56,148 nucleotides of DNA from Candidatus Nomurabacteria bacterium GW2011_GWE1_32_28. GTDB taxonomy: Bacteria > Patescibacteriota > Minisyncoccia > Phycocordibacterales > UBA9973. This document shows positions 7,352 through 36,163 of this stretch, one piece after another (the first letter of the stretch is position 1; each line of letters opens with the position of its first letter). The stretch is from positions 1 to 56,148 of the forward strand of contig LBOM01000004.1 in the NCBI GenBank assembly GCA_000989515.1, written 5' to 3'. Made by a program: the position numbers and the translations under genes. The notes under the pieces are model-generated. The model did no database searches. It saw nothing but the letters and a program-made list of their open reading frames with translations, and was not told the DNA's origin.

Positions 7352-8368
7352 TTATATCAAGAATTCTATAACATCTCCATCTTTCACAACATACTCTTTC
7401 CCTTCTGTTCTCACCCATCCTTTTTCTTTTGCTTTTGTATATGAACCAGCTTCCAATAATTTATCCCAACTTATTACCTCTGCTCGAATAAATTTCTCTT
7501 TAAAGTCTGTATGTATCGCTGTACCTGCTATGGGTGCTGTAGAGCCTATCTTTATAGTCCAAGCACGCGTCTCATCTTCTCCTGTAGTTAAGAATGTTTC
7601 AAGACCTAAAAGCTTATAACTTTGTTTAATTAATTCATCAAAACCTTTTTCAAATACGGGATCAATCTTCACAAACAAAGGGTTTTTTCCAGAAATATCA
7701 GGTAATTTTATATCCACATTTTCACCAGCTTCTGAAGTATTCAAAACATAAAGCATCGGTTTTAATGTTAATAAATTTAAAGATTTTATTTTAAACTTTT
7801 CATCATCGATCAAATAAACCTCTGTGGCCATTTTTCCTTCTTCTAAAACTTTTATAACTTTATTTAAAATAATTTCTTCAGCAATTGCATCTTTATCTCC
7901 CTTTTTAACATCTTTAACTAAATTAGAAAGTCTTTTTAAGACAGTTTCCATATCAGCTAAAACAAGTTCTAAATTTATTACTCCTACATCTTGTATTGGA
8001 TCAACTTTATTTGATACATGGATCACAGAATTATCTTGAAATGTACGCACGACGTGAGCAATGGCATCTACTTCACGAATATTTGTTAAGAATTTATTGC
8101 CCAAACCTTCCCCCTTTGAAGCACCAGCTACAAGCCCTGCAATATCAACAAACTCTATTACAGCAGGAATAGTTTTTTTAGATTTTGAAAAATCTGAAAG
8201 CATTTGAACTCTTTCGTCAGGCACAGGCACGATACCTATCGATGGATCGATAGTACAAAAAGGATAATTTTCTGCTGGTACACTCTTTTTAGTAAGCGCA
8301 TTAAAAAGTGTCGACTTTCCGACATTTGGTAAACCTACAATTCCTATACTTAGAGAAGAACTTGACAT
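7352..8368 (-). CDS. ychF: Redox-regulated GTPase/ATPase YchF
   Basis: [43 protein letters not shown]-terminal TGS region. Confidence 0.95.
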
Positions 8369-9965
8369 AGATTTCGCTTAAACTGATAATGCCATAAACT
8401 TGTAATGACTTTCGACTGGCAGTTGCTTGATTGACTACTGTTCTAATAAAAGCTTGTTTTAACTCAAAACTCAAATTTTCTAATCCTTCAACAGCTTCTT
8501 TAGCAAATACTTCAACTTCATCACTGCTAGGTAATAGTATGTCATTTTTAGGTGTTTTCTCCAAATTAGCTTTAATTATTTGATCTTCAAATTCACGAAT
8601 TTTTACTCGTATTGGAGCTACAAATTCTTCAAACTGTTTAAGAGAAATAACCTCTTTAGAATACGCAACAGCAAAGCGACTTTCTTGTGCTTGTAATTTC
8701 GCTATCTCGTCCTCAGTACTTTTAATATTGATGGTTGAATTTAAGATATTATTACTCTTATTTTTTTCTTGCCATTTTTTAATTTGCTCAGAAAGTAATT
8801 CAGGTGAACTCATTATCATTTTAAGTCTATCCCATAATACCTTATCAGTAATTTTCGCATTGATTCCACCTTCTACACAGCTAGGAGGTAAAGGAAAACT
8901 ATGAACTCTATCAGTACATCTATAATAAAGATGCTTGCCATGCTGTGGGCCTTCCCCTGCTCTACGTTGTCCACACAAACACCAAATTTTACTAGCAAGT
9001 AAATAATGGTTTTTCGTATTTCTTCCAAGAGTTGCAAAATTCTTTTTTAATCTCAACCCAGCACGTTCAAACAAATCTTTCTCTATAATAGCTGGAACAG
9101 TTATTGCATACCATTGATCTTTTGATTTCATTCTTCTGCTGGATTTTTCTACTTTTTTATATTTCTCATTTTTAATTGGATTTATTGGCACAGTAGCATA
9201 AGATGCACCCCAATAAGTTGTACCGATAAAAACTTCATGTCTTAAAAGAGTGCTTAGAGTACTTGTATTCCAAACTCCTCTTTTGCTTTTTCGAGGTTTA
9301 ATACCAAGATCTTGTAATTTTCTTACAACTGCTCGAAGCGTAAGACCATCATCTGCCACCCAATGAAATATATTCCTTATAATTTCAGCTTCACGTGGAT
9401 TTATTTCATAGTGGCCAGAAATATAATCGGTACTTCCCCTTTTACCTTTGTTAAGAATATAAGTATAGCCAAAAGGAGCCTCTGTCGTAAGAACTTGATT
9501 ATTTTTTACACGATTAACTTTACCAATTCTAAAACGTTCAGTAATTTTTGCTTTTTCATATTCAGCAAATAAACCTCTTACACCGAACAGAAGTTTATCA
9601 CTAGCATTATTTACTGGTGGCATCGTTACAAAAAGAATTTCAATTCCTATCTTCTTTAATTCATCAATAACAAGTTGCTGATATACAAGCTGTCTACCAA
9701 GTCTATCGGGGTCATATACAAGAACAGCATCCCACGCTCTATTTCTCGCATCGTGACGTAATTGATCGAGACTTGGTCTGGCAATAACATCCCCACTCCA
9801 TCCCTCATCAATATATTCTTTAATAATTATATATCCATTCTTTTTAGCAAATTCTCTATCTTCCGAAAGTTGTGCCTCAACTGTTTTTTGATCTTCTTGA
9901 TTTGAAGTTGATACTCTTGCGTAGACAGCTATAAACTTTATTTCTTTTTTTATTACATTTTCCAT
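8301..9965 (-). CDS. Large serine recombinase (resolvase + recombinase + zinc beta-ribbon)
   Basis: AVYARVSTSNQEDQKTVEAQL, VYDPDRLGRQ, recombinase domain, CLCGQRR...YYRC ribbon. Confidence 0.93.
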   Translation of the reverse strand: MENVIKKEIKFIAVYARVSTSNQEDQKTVEAQLSEDREFAKKNGYIIIKEYIDEGWSGDVIARPSLDQLRHDARNRAWDAVLVYDPDRLGRQLVYQQLVIDELKKIGIEILFVTMPPVNNASDKLLFGVRGLFAEYEKAKITERFRIGKVNRVKNNQVLTTEAPFGYTYILNKGKRGSTDYISGHYEINPREAEIIRNIFHWVADDGLTLRAVVRKLQDLGIKPRKSKRGVWNTSTLSTLLRHEVFIGTTYWGASYATVPINPIKNEKYKKVEKSSRRMKSKDQWYAITVPAIIEKDLFERAGLRLKKNFATLGRNTKNHYLLASKIWCLCGQRRAGEGPQHGKHLYYRCTDRVHSFPLPPSCVEGGINAKITDKVLWDRLKMIMSSPELLSEQIKKWQEKNKSNNILNSTINIKSTEDEIAKLQAQESRFAVAYSKEVISLKQFEEFVAPIRVKIREFEDQIIKANLEKTPKNDILLPSSDEVEVFAKEAVEGLENLSFELKQAFIRTVVNQATASRKSLQVYGIISLSEIYVKFFSKYRNCRFTKCRKVDTF

Positions 9966-11876: not shown

Positions 11877-12205
11877 AGATAGATATTGTGTTTATTAATA
11901 AAGAAGCATCACTCGACTATGGTGCTTGAGATTTGTGCAATGTAGCTTCTGCAATTTGCTACTTATTGCACTTACATAGTTTTGAAGGGGTGCCAGGGGC
12001 GTGGTTCGATTTAACTTCCACCCATCCGAGGAACATCCAAGGATATGGTAGTAACCATAGGGTTGAAAAAAATCTTGGATTTGTTCTCTATTTCAGAATC
12101 AAAGGCCGAAAAAAAATTCTAAAAAATTTATAGAAATTAGGGGGTTTGCAGGAGTCCAACAAAGGTGTATTATTGTAGGTATAACTGAATAAAAAAGTAG
12201 CCTAA

Positions 12206-12356
12206 CCCTTTAGTGATAAAGGTATGGTGAAGAAGTCCACTACAGCATAAAAAACTCCTAGTCAGAGTTTCGCTGTAGTGGCCGTACTTGGAAACAGGTA
12301 CGAGTGGTCGAAAGATCACTGATCTGGCTGGGAGCTTTTTATGTGTAAGCTCCAGC
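12206..12356 (+). ncRNA. Structured RNA leader of the HNH gene (five consecutive helices)
   Basis: CCTTT/AAAGG; CCACTACAGC/GCTGTAGTGG with inner AAACTC/GAGTTT; CGTACTTG-GAAA-CAGGTACG; AGTGGTC-GAAA-GATCACT; GCTGGGAGCTT/AAGCTCCAGC. Confidence 0.6.
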
Positions 12357-12979
12357 TAAGTAGTTTTATTTCCATGAACTTAGCTGATAAAGAATATCTT
12401 TCCTCTCTGGAGAAAGAAGTCATAGGCAATTACGTTTATTTTTTTAGCCCTTTAGATAAGGAGTATCTTTCTCATTTTAAAGACACGATTGAAACTCTGG
12501 AAGAATTAAAAAAATATAAAAGTTGGTATCAACGGATTTTTGATTCTAAAAAATTGTCCGAGGCTAAACGAATTTATAAAGAAGAAATAGACACGATTGT
12601 AAAAAAGATTAGTGACTTACATAAAGAACAGAGAGAAGAAGAGCGTTTGCTTTATTCAAAAAAAACTAAAATGGATAAATATTGGCAGCTACGTAAAGAA
12701 ATTGAATCAATGCCACAGTATGGAATTTGGAGACAAGCAGTACTTCAAAAATTTGGCAGGAAATGCGCTGTATGTGGTTCTACCGAAAATCTGGAAGTAG
12801 ATCATCGCTATAAATCTTTCTACGCCATTACAAAAGAGTATGGAATCACGAATAAAGTTCAAGCATATGGCTGTGCTGAGTTATGGGATATAGATAATGG
12901 AGCACCGCTGTGTAAAACACACCACGACCAAACACCAAGCAGTAGAAAATATTTACAAACTAACCAAAAAACAATATGA
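12341..12979 (+). CDS. HNH endonuclease with coiled-coil N-terminus
   Basis: CAVCGSTENLEVDHRYKS...NGAPLCKTHHDQ; SD-like GGGAG 6-7 nt upstream of ATG. Confidence 0.85.
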   Translation: MCKLQLSSFISMNLADKEYLSSLEKEVIGNYVYFFSPLDKEYLSHFKDTIETLEELKKYKSWYQRIFDSKKLSEAKRIYKEEIDTIVKKISDLHKEQREEERLLYSKKTKMDKYWQLRKEIESMPQYGIWRQAVLQKFGRKCAVCGSTENLEVDHRYKSFYAITKEYGITNKVQAYGCAELWDIDNGAPLCKTHHDQTPSSRKYLQTNQKTI

Positions 12980-13230
12980 GCTATATCAACAATATTCCTA
13001 CACATTCAGATGGAGATCCATGTCCTGCTTGTGGCTGTGGAGATAAATCAAAAGGAGGTAAATTACGTTTGATTAAGACTAAAGATGGAAGTCGTTTATT
13101 TCTTGGTTGTAATAGGTATCCTAATTGTAAATATACTGTCTCAGCTTATTACACTTCTGAGAATTTAGACTTACAGATAGAGCGAGAACTGGAAGAAGAG
13201 GAACGAGAACTAAGGAATGCCTTTGAGTAA
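12976..13230 (+). CDS. Topoisomerase-type C4 zinc-finger protein
   Basis: CPACGCGDKSKGGKLRLIKTKDGSRLFLGCNRYPNCKYT. Confidence 0.65.
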   Translation: MSYINNIPTHSDGDPCPACGCGDKSKGGKLRLIKTKDGSRLFLGCNRYPNCKYTVSAYYTSENLDLQIERELEEEERELRNAFE

Positions 13231-16780: not shown

Positions 16781-18535
16781 TTAATAAACTTCTTGCTGAT
16801 AACATTTCTCGCAGTAAACTATTTCTGGCCGATCTGGTGCGTAACTTGTTTCAAATTCTACTTCGCAATTTTTATCACCATGTAAATGATTTTGTTTATT
16901 GCACATACATTGCCTATGCCAAAGCTTCAAAGGATTTCTCTGTTTTAATCTTTGAAAGTGTCGACAATTCGGGCACAATCTAGGTAAAGGTAAATTCATT
17001 CTGCGATAAAATATTAAATCTTCAGGTAAAATTCTAAAAGCAGTCATACAGTTCTCTTTACAATTTCCTTTATGTTCACAACCAATTACTTCATCTAATA
17101 TAGAATCATTTATTTCAGTAATGGAATCTGGAATTTCTTCAGAATTTTTTGTTATTCCATAATTTCTCTTATCGTGTTCTCTCCAGTTATAACCATTTTC
17201 CTTAGCTTGATTTTGATTTAAAAAGAAATATTCTTGGGCAGTAGTTTCATTATAGCCGAATGGTGAAAGTTCAATAGGAAAAAACTCCCCATATTTATAT
17301 ACTCTGCCCTTTTTGTCCACATAAGGCATATTATTCATATGTTTTATTATTTTTGGTATGAGTTCTTCGTATTCCTCTTTAGTGTACTGTTTATTTAAAA
17401 TACAATATTTTTTCTTCTTTAATCCAACACAACCAAAAATATATGATGATCCAGGAACGGTAATACTGTAGTTTGCATTATTCGTATTCATCCAATTCCC
17501 CCAACCAAATTTACAATTAGATAATCCATCTCCAGACTGCAAACATTCATATACTAATTCAATATTATCTCCGTAATGAGTAAAATCATAGGTAGTTCTT
17601 ACGGGGCCATTAGAAACAAAAGAACAAAATTTTGAATCTTCTAAGTTAGCAGCGCCAAAGCATGATTTAGAGTTTTTAGAACGTTCCAAGTAATCACCCG
17701 TTACATTTGAATTCTGAACTCCAAAATAGTATCTCTTAGGAAATTCCTTCCAAAACTCATGTGCTTTTTCTTTCAGTAAGGTAATATTTTTGTGGGAATC
17801 TACTCCAAAAGATTTTAACTTATTCTCATATTCTTCTTTAGAATATGGTTCATTAAAAATATGATAGCTTTTCTTGTGCAAATTTACACAACCAAAACAA
17901 TTATTACAACCTCTTAGCCCAAATGAGAAAGATACTTCTACACAATCCTCGCAATTTTGCGAGAAAAGAGTCTGATAACAATTTATACAAGTCACTATTT
18001 CATAGCAAAGTTCGCACTTTCTGGCCATAGTAATATCTTGGGAATCTTTATCATAAAAAGCTCCGCTACCATATGAAACATTTTCGTCATAAGTTCCATC
18101 ATGTAGTAGATAACAATTTCTCATGTCATTTGCCATGTTGCAATATTGAGAATTAACCATAGTAGTGCCAAAAGCAAAGAGATTAGGAGCGGGAACTTTA
18201 TTAAAAAGCTCAAAAAGTTGAGTTATAAAAGGCTTAGAGAAATCTATATCTTCTGCATAATCCAAGGCATCCCATTTATCACTCCACCAACATTTATCGC
18301 AATAGACAACATTGTTTAAATCTTTGTTGTAAATAGAAATTATTTTTTTACCACATAAACCGCACTCTCTATTATGAAGGCCCCTTTCATTGCGCCAGGC
18401 TAAACGCCTTTGTAGACGACAATTGGAGCAAAAAGTTGGTGGTGGAACATTTACCTTCTCGTAAAACCCAAAATCATCTGACTCAATAGTGAAGTCTATT
18501 TTACAATTCTGGCAGTTTTTAGTTTCTGATTCCAT
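16781..18535 (-). CDS. Cys-rich multi-zinc-ribbon/beta-repeat protein of CPR type
   Basis: Many CxxC pairs (CQNC, CSNC, CGLCGKK, CDKC, CELC, CINC, CEDC, CNNCFGC, CPNC, CEKC). Confidence 0.6.
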   Translation of the reverse strand: MESETKNCQNCKIDFTIESDDFGFYEKVNVPPPTFCSNCRLQRRLAWRNERGLHNRECGLCGKKIISIYNKDLNNVVYCDKCWWSDKWDALDYAEDIDFSKPFITQLFELFNKVPAPNLFAFGTTMVNSQYCNMANDMRNCYLLHDGTYDENVSYGSGAFYDKDSQDITMARKCELCYEIVTCINCYQTLFSQNCEDCVEVSFSFGLRGCNNCFGCVNLHKKSYHIFNEPYSKEEYENKLKSFGVDSHKNITLLKEKAHEFWKEFPKRYYFGVQNSNVTGDYLERSKNSKSCFGAANLEDSKFCSFVSNGPVRTTYDFTHYGDNIELVYECLQSGDGLSNCKFGWGNWMNTNNANYSITVPGSSYIFGCVGLKKKKYCILNKQYTKEEYEELIPKIIKHMNNMPYVDKKGRVYKYGEFFPIELSPFGYNETTAQEYFFLNQNQAKENGYNWREHDKRNYGITKNSEEIPDSITEINDSILDEVIGCEHKGNCKENCMTAFRILPEDLIFYRRMNLPLPRLCPNCRHFQRLKQRNPLKLWHRQCMCNKQNHLHGDKNCEVEFETSYAPDRPEIVYCEKCYQQEVY

Positions 18536-35578: not shown

Positions 35579-36163
35579 CTAATTATACAAAGACATAGCT
35601 TTGTCTTTTCCCTCTGTTACAATAGTTTCAAGCGCTTGCGCTACTTTTTTAGAAAGTTTTTTAAGCTCAACTAATTCTTTTTCTTTATATTCACCCAGCA
35701 AGAATTTTAAGACATCTTTCTCCCCTTTTGGTTTTCTTAATTTTCCTGATGGTGTCTCAGGAGAAATTCCAATTCTTATTCGTACAAATTCTTTTGATTT
35801 TAATTTTTTAATTATTGATTCAAGACCATTATGTCCACCAGAACTTTTATCATAAGATATTTTCATTTTTCCGATGGGTAGATCTATGTCATCATAAATA
35901 ATTACGATATCTTTAAGATTTAATTTATGTTTATCTTTCAGAAAAGCTACAGCTACCCCAGAATTATTCATAAATGTAGTGGGTTTGATATATTCAGCAG
36001 GTTTACCTGCAATATAATCTTTATAAAAAAGAGCTTTAGTCCCAGAACTTTGTTTCCATTCAATCTTTTTACTTAAAATAAAATCAATAATCATAAAACC
36101 AGTATTGTGTCTACTGTTTTGATATTCTTCTCCTGGATTTCCCAAACCTACAATAAGCTTCAT
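35579..36163 (-). CDS. pth: Peptidyl-tRNA hydrolase (start likely MKLIVGLGNPG)
   Basis: MKLIVGLGNPGEEYQNSRHNTGFM, DDIDLPIGKMKIS, GGHNGLESI. Confidence 0.93.
   Translation of the reverse strand: MKLIVGLGNPGEEYQNSRHNTGFMIIDFILSKKIEWKQSSGTKALFYKDYIAGKPAEYIKPTTFMNNSGVAVAFLKDKHKLNLKDIVIIYDDIDLPIGKMKISYDKSSGGHNGLESIIKKLKSKEFVRIRIGISPETPSGKLRKPKGEKDVLKFLLGEYKEKELVELKKLSKKVAQALETIVTEGKDKAMSLYN

Follow-up and report, generated by a model that had tools for sequence, protein, structure and literature searches.

A LOOT RNA of Candidatus Nomurabacteria as a probable two-state, cis-acting 5′ leader of prophage-like serine-recombinase elements

The stretch of DNA analysed here (56,148 nucleotides of Candidatus Nomurabacteria bacterium GW2011_GWE1_32_28, hereafter the window) contains a structured RNA directly 5′ of an HNH-type gene. 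Our comparative analyses point, with somewhat better than even confidence, to this RNA being a copy of LOOT (RF03000) that acts in cis as the 5′ leader of prophage-like serine-recombinase elements, probably by switching between two states. Three lines of evidence bear on this reading: (i) the RNA matches the LOOT covariance model over its full length; (ii) LOOT precedes diverse cargo genes within mobile elements of Patescibacteria; and (iii) a tail beyond the Rfam model covaries with the loop side of helix P2, one arm of which is complementary to the ribosome-binding site (RBS) of the downstream gene in a subset of copies.

Identity and fold of the window RNA

RF03000 matches positions 12199–12320 of the forward strand over model positions 1–121 of 121 (cmscan; 81.1 bits, E = 9e-14), which exceeds the gathering cut-off of 46.4 bits; both the fold and the covariance-model (CM) alignment contain P1–P4, with a GAAA loop capping P3 (Table 1). 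The first-pass annotation had suggested a new RNA family, a claim that falls with this Rfam match. The individual helices that it had named are nevertheless genuine: all are present in the sequence and fold jointly, and P1–P4 are also recovered by the RF03000 covariance model. Positions 12199–12360 have a minimum free energy (MFE) of −64.1 kcal/mol (z = −6.4), which none of 200 shuffled sequences equalled, and the LOOT part alone (12199–12320) has a fold z of −6.8. The last hairpin, GCTGGGAGCTT...AAGCTCCAGC at 12328–12356, lies beyond the Rfam model and reaches z of about −3.3 by itself; the conserved LOOT tail supplies the 5′ strand of this hairpin.

A search of the region against Rfam gave no match to other RNA classes (introns, HEARO or the C4 RNA, RF01695), either at the gathering cut-off or at E values up to 1. 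This agrees with the earlier judgement, which set the RNA apart from HEARO, omega-RNA and group I/II introns. The window locus likewise lacks the combination of an Rfam match and an IscB/TnpB-type partner that characterizes HEARO/omega-RNA, as the HNH protein has only a weak, 28-residue match to the IscB profile (17.9 bits versus a 175-bit cut-off); for a group I/II intron core there was no Rfam match. At 201 aa, the length of the protein also fits the earlier remark that it has no RuvC domain.

Table 1. Features of the LOOT locus and its element in the window
Feature	Positions	Strand	Basis or remark
Large serine recombinase (PF00239, PF07508), integrative element	8301–9965	−	Inserted at 5′ end of ychF (7352–8368)
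Probable promoter: −10 TATTAT (12168–12173) and conserved start box TATAACTGAAT (12180–12190; YACAAYTNAAT-like)	12168–12190	+	By eye
LOOT RNA (RF03000), P1–P4	12199–12320	+	cmscan, fold z
P1, 11-nt GAAA-tetraloop-receptor-like motif: CCUAAC (12201–12206) and UAUGG (12223–12227)	12201–12227	+	Sequence
P2 5′ arm (a), CCACTACAGC	12237–12246	+	Fold and CM; varies between copies
Strand b, A-run and CTCCTAGTCAGA, P2 loop side, partner of tail b′	12247–12266	+	MFE of transcript 12199–12345; swapped-tail test
P2 3′ arm (a′), GCTGTAGTGG; antisense arm in RBS-complement copies, window copy without complement	12272–12281	+	
P3 hairpin, CGTACTTG-GAAA-CAGGTACG	12283–12302	+	Fold and CM
P4 hairpin, AGTGGTC-GAAA-GATCACT; loop GAAA, GCAA, GUAA or UUCG across copies	12303–12320	+	Fold and CM
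Tail b′ (TCTGGCTGGGAGC) and U-run, beyond Rfam model; pairs with b or c	12323–12342	+	
Strand c (AAGCTCCAGC), local partner of b′ (in the last hairpin of the first-pass annotation)	12347–12356	+	Fold
HNH-type protein, 201 aa, gene led by the window LOOT; 12341 is an alternative start	12374–12979	+	PHROG HNH endonuclease, E = 1e-6; spacing
Topoisomerase-type zinc ribbon, overlapping second gene of a probable operon	12976–13230	+	Pfam PF01396, 2.3e-6, under curated cut-off

Sampling and leader position of LOOT copies

The window genome (667 kb) contains two LOOT copies. LOOT is present in 83 of 380 genomes of the same phylum, with one to seven copies in each, and a scan of named genome contigs yielded 47 stretches with LOOT, almost all from metagenome-assembled genomes (MAGs) of Patescibacteria/CPR. 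The comparison set consists of 107 copies (105 unique), mostly from MAGs, with up to 20 kb fetched around most of them; a further independent set of 22 copies was found through the P3 pattern, which brings the total to more than 120. The automatic stem search for P2 failed in a few copies (e.g. L114, L137 and L145). LOOT-like P3 matches also occur in MAGs labelled Bacteroidetes and Woesearchaeota (L185 and L200), which probably represent mis-binned contigs.

LOOT is the 5′ leader of unrelated cargo genes. In nearly all of the 105 unique copies, the distance from the Rfam end to the start of the next gene, which has the orientation of LOOT, is 30–95 nt, with a peak at 50–65 nt. The next genes among the 107 copies encode DNA methylases, nucleases, zinc-ribbon proteins, membrane proteins and secreted proteins. 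Type II/III and Dam/Dcm-type DNA methylases make up about ten of 93 next genes; the others include thermonucleases, HtrA-like proteases, superinfection-exclusion-like proteins and many unknown membrane or secreted proteins. At one locus (L091; G112:C3:17612–17748 and 17988–18107), two LOOT copies about 240 bp apart both precede small paralogous genes (MPKFKIDFWF/MPKYKIDIWF), and a third copy lies 9 kb off. At five others (L047, L052, L054, L070 and L082), a MerR/excisionase-like gene of ∼72 aa ends 22–28 nt before LOOT on the same strand (about 145–375 nt upstream of the LOOT end), with the DNA methylase mostly downstream of LOOT; the place of this small gene resembles that of a controller gene.

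The window nuclease is a single case in this set: an HNH gene is the next gene in 1 of 107 copies, and only one weak relative of it was found in the 380 genomes and none in viral contigs. The adjacency of LOOT and HNH therefore has no general meaning, and the diversity of next genes contradicts the proposal of an HNH-associated RNA; the place of LOOT beside a nuclease gene appears to be incidental.

The start codon of the window gene also needs reconsideration. The first-pass annotation took ATG 12341, exposed in the loop of the last hairpin, as the start, and suggested that pairing of a Shine–Dalgarno-like (SD) sequence there controls translation of the nuclease. In other LOOT tails this position holds the U-run followed by GUG. 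Among 51 copies with GUG or AUG after the U-run, reading frames are random and about half run into a stop, so we rejected a conserved start codon in the tail, and the in-frame reading from 12341 is likely due to chance. ATG 12374 lies 53 nt past LOOT, within the usual spacing of 45–65 nt, and is likelier to be the start of the HNH gene. Control of the nuclease gene through RNA folding is probable; the form proposed for it, with SD and ATG presented in a hairpin at 12341, is not conserved across copies and is probably wrong.

LOOT rides in integrative elements and prophages

In Patescibacteria, LOOT is located in prophages or in integrative elements with a serine recombinase. Of the 107 copies, 73 (68%) have a large serine recombinase within 8 kb, versus 4.9% expected from recombinase counts per genome under assumed 900-kb genomes and random placement, and 26 (24%) have terminase genes nearby; both counts hinge on the simple ORF calling and the profile growth that were used. 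Primases lie near 14 copies, and the nearby recombinases are mostly upstream of LOOT on the opposite strand. The recombinase family PF07508 is present in 76 of 83 genomes with LOOT and in 164 of 297 genomes without it (p = 9e-11). Among IMG/VR viral contigs, a stricter pattern combined with cmscan gave three that contain LOOT; an initial, looser pattern had returned mostly chance matches, and blastn of the window RNA against a phage collection gave no match.

In the window, homology to relatives ends at about 8352, at the 5′ end or first codons of ychF, and no att-like direct repeats of at least 12 nt flank the recombinase element. In nine genomes ychF adjoins a LOOT element, so this gene may often serve as an attachment site in Patescibacteria. 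The second LOOT copy of the window genome (G000:C3:7425–7546; L001, L074), which has the start-site repeat CCTATCAAGCA before its ATG, is identical to a copy in another species of the same genus (G358:C6:205503–205624; L076), and the identity extends into the compared surrounding sequence. Such identity across two species suggests a recent transfer.

A covarying tail beyond the Rfam model

The tail past the Rfam model consists of a conserved GC-rich strand, b′, and a U-run, and is complementary to the loop-side strand b of P2. Strands b and b′ covary: the pairing score is 28.8 for own tails versus 16.8 for swapped tails, 89% of own tails versus 20% of swapped tails exceed a fixed threshold, and a median of only 1% of foreign tails match the own tail in pairing with b. 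About half of the tails can alternatively pair with the local strand c (46% versus 15% at a higher threshold). RF03000 is classed as an sRNA in Rfam, and the model ends short of the covarying tail (12199–12342 in the window with the tail included); the type and the model may both need revision.

Folding of the window transcript is predicted to depend on where it ends. The transcript that ends at the U-run adopts the b:b′ fold with P2 broken (−57.8 kcal/mol), and the one that includes c forms P1–P4 together with b′:c (−64.1 kcal/mol). Switching as in the window copy is predicted for only 15 of 100 copies, and the predicted balance varies; with a complete or an incomplete tail alike, nested folding favours P2 in the majority of copies, but this method cannot treat a loop–tail pseudoknot that would combine P2 with part of b:b′. 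A GC-rich helix and a U-run, the elements of a putative intrinsic terminator, are present; in most copies a conserved G or GUG interrupts the U-run, which sets it apart from that of a strong terminator. The two folds may interconvert in cells, and the U-run may terminate transcription.

An antisense arm against the ribosome-binding site

In a quarter to half of the copies, the 3′ arm of P2 (a′) is, as judged from complementarity, antisense to the RBS of its own gene. The P2 5′ arm is repeated over at least 8 nt in a segment 15–120 nt downstream in 28 of 105 copies, compared with an arm-swap null of 1.1% (maximum 4.9% in 200 rounds), and in more distant or upstream segments only in 1–2%. The repeat adjoins the ATG in 25 of 104 copies, mostly ending 1–5 nt ahead of it. 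In the independent set it is present in 11 of 22 copies, against a null of 7% that is inflated by similar arms. A segment complementary to the RBS of a gene that, to judge by spacing, probably shares its transcript is thus found in 25 of 104 and 11 of 22 copies, respectively.

Where the complement is present, a′ pairs with its own RBS at a mean duplex energy of −19.0 kcal/mol versus −6.8 kcal/mol for foreign arms. Within one genome, the match of an arm to its own gene is 8–11 nt long, versus 3–6 nt to other genes, with two sister copies in one genome (G012) as the exception. The arm sequence is private to each copy while both pairings are kept, as selection on pairing predicts and in agreement with the published cross-covariation (PMC7657543). 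An A-rich flank immediately 5′ of the repeat is likewise common to both sites, though a′ cannot pair there, so that common descent or a shared binding site is conceivable; sequence identity drops past the 3′ end of the helix.

The remaining 78 copies are at chance level (−6.2 kcal/mol for own versus −5.8 kcal/mol for foreign arms). About three quarters of the copies, the window copy included, thus have no RBS complement above chance, and translational blocking is not universal. In copies without an a′ match, RBS complements from other parts of LOOT occur at chance level at 7–9 nt, and downstream pairing by the P2 5′ arm in place of the 3′ arm was rejected, with 1–2 cases only. The window copy has neither a downstream repeat nor an RBS complement. 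Two candidate trans targets of its arm CCACTACAGC were also discarded: a perfect extra copy in the window genome has no nearby ATG, and a match at window position 35982 lies inside a peptidyl-tRNA hydrolase gene. Since neither a start-site complement nor a plausible trans target was found for the window copy, the evidence there favours the tail switch alone.

Promoter box and tertiary motif

Upstream of LOOT, CAAYT is present in 63 of 105 copies, with TANNNT most often 6–7 nt before it (29 cases). In its full form, a conserved ACAAYTNAAT box stands 6–7 nt past a TATAAT-like hexamer upstream of most LOOT copies; this box probably represents the first transcribed bases.

The 11-nt GAAA-tetraloop receptor has the sequence CCUAAG/UAUGG. 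In most of the 105 copies P1 contains a similar motif, either CCUAA-A with C-AUGG or CCUAA-C with U-AUGG, and its two variable positions co-vary in most copies. The P3 loop is GAAA in the copies inspected, and the P4 loop is variable, which makes docking of the GAAA loop of P3 on the receptor-like motif of P1 a natural guess.

Proposed mechanism and alternative explanations

We propose the following two-state model. In the first state, P2 (a:a′) would form with its inner hairpin as a cap, the GAAA loop of P3 would be docked on the P1 receptor and the local strand c would hold tail b′, so that the start site would be accessible and the gene readable. In the second state, b′, which the U-run follows, would invade the loop side of P2 (b:b′) to create a terminator-like helix, which would release a′; in the antisense class (about a quarter of copies), a′ would then cover its partner copy just before the start codon and block translation. 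More tentatively, at slightly less than even chances in our estimation, LOOT could be a phage-borne class of RNA switches in Patescibacteria whose single long helix is both a scaffold and a self-targeting antisense guide; the tail would enter the helix through a loop–tail toehold, and the freed arm, re-specified for each cargo, would silence the start site of the gene that follows.

Other readings share part of this evidence. LOOT could be a ligand-binding riboswitch of phages, with the docked P1–P3 core as aptamer and P2 and the tail as expression platform. A conserved core with a receptor-like motif, variable switching strands and the leader position are consistent with this, but the next genes share no common pathway and there is no known ligand, and we regard such a riboswitch as rather unlikely. 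LOOT could also act in trans as an antisense or immunity RNA that arises from the leader by cleavage or termination, like the C4 RNA of phages P1 and P7; once free, it would silence the mRNA of its own cargo gene as well as that mRNA from related phages that enter the cell. The RBS complementarity, the private arm of each copy, the prophage context and the U-run tail accord with it, as does the precedent of C4, which matures from a larger transcript and blocks ribosome-binding sites (PMC5320573, PMC12197685). However, cis action suffices, since every arm matches the gene that it precedes, and no trans target of the window arm was found in its own genome; we consider trans action a serious but less likely alternative.

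Rather than being pairing partners of a′, the P2 5′ arm and its repeat ahead of the ATG might be two copies of one protein- or RNA-binding site, a decoy and its target, a reading to which the shared A-rich left flank lends itself. The sequence differs in each copy with P2 pairing kept, and identity falls past the 3′ end of the helix, which makes this explanation improbable. An HNH-associated RNA, as the first-pass annotation had it, here taken as a nuclease guide or cofactor, draws on adjacency in the window only; given the RF03000 match, the single HNH neighbour and the scarcity of HNH relatives, it is refuted as a general link, and we give it almost no credence. The cis-acting two-state leader is our preferred reading.

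Relation to known systems and implications

LOOT has been in Rfam for years. It is mentioned among metagenomic RNAs (PMC7779021) and among the Rfam families with improved structures (PMC11701678), and cross-covariation inside its helices has been noted as extreme (PMC7657543); no described function was found in the literature searched. Whereas the Rfam entry, which matches here over its full length, describes an sRNA and ends before the tail, our analysis describes a leader in which the tail has a covarying partner and some copies also bear an antisense arm against the RBS.

Among known systems, the best reading is that LOOT is mechanically similar to C4 but outside the C4 family. Like C4, which is processed by RNase P and acts in trans, LOOT would be a phage RNA with a variable antisense segment complementary to an RBS and with private specificity. 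By contrast, LOOT has no RF01695 match and a different fold (four hairpins, tail pairing and a receptor-like motif), its targets are diverse and not an antirepressor, and it would probably act in cis. With riboswitch-type attenuators, which work by termination or RBS sequestration, LOOT shares the leader position, mutually exclusive helices, a U-run and a start-site-blocking strand, but it has no known ligand and its downstream genes are unrelated. HEARO/omega-RNA and group I/II introns are alike in placing a structured RNA beside a nuclease gene; LOOT differs in that it has no such Rfam match and is not nuclease-associated, and the 201-aa window protein has no RuvC domain by length.

Replacement of whole helix arms together may explain the cross-covariation published for LOOT, and a re-targetable, self-antisense leader could serve as a genetic part. 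Genes that would come under the control of LOOT RNA include those for DNA methylases, nucleases, and surface and superinfection-exclusion-like proteins. The anatomy described here makes LOOT a testable candidate for a regulatory switch and places it in the mobile elements and prophages of a huge, barely cultivated bacterial group.
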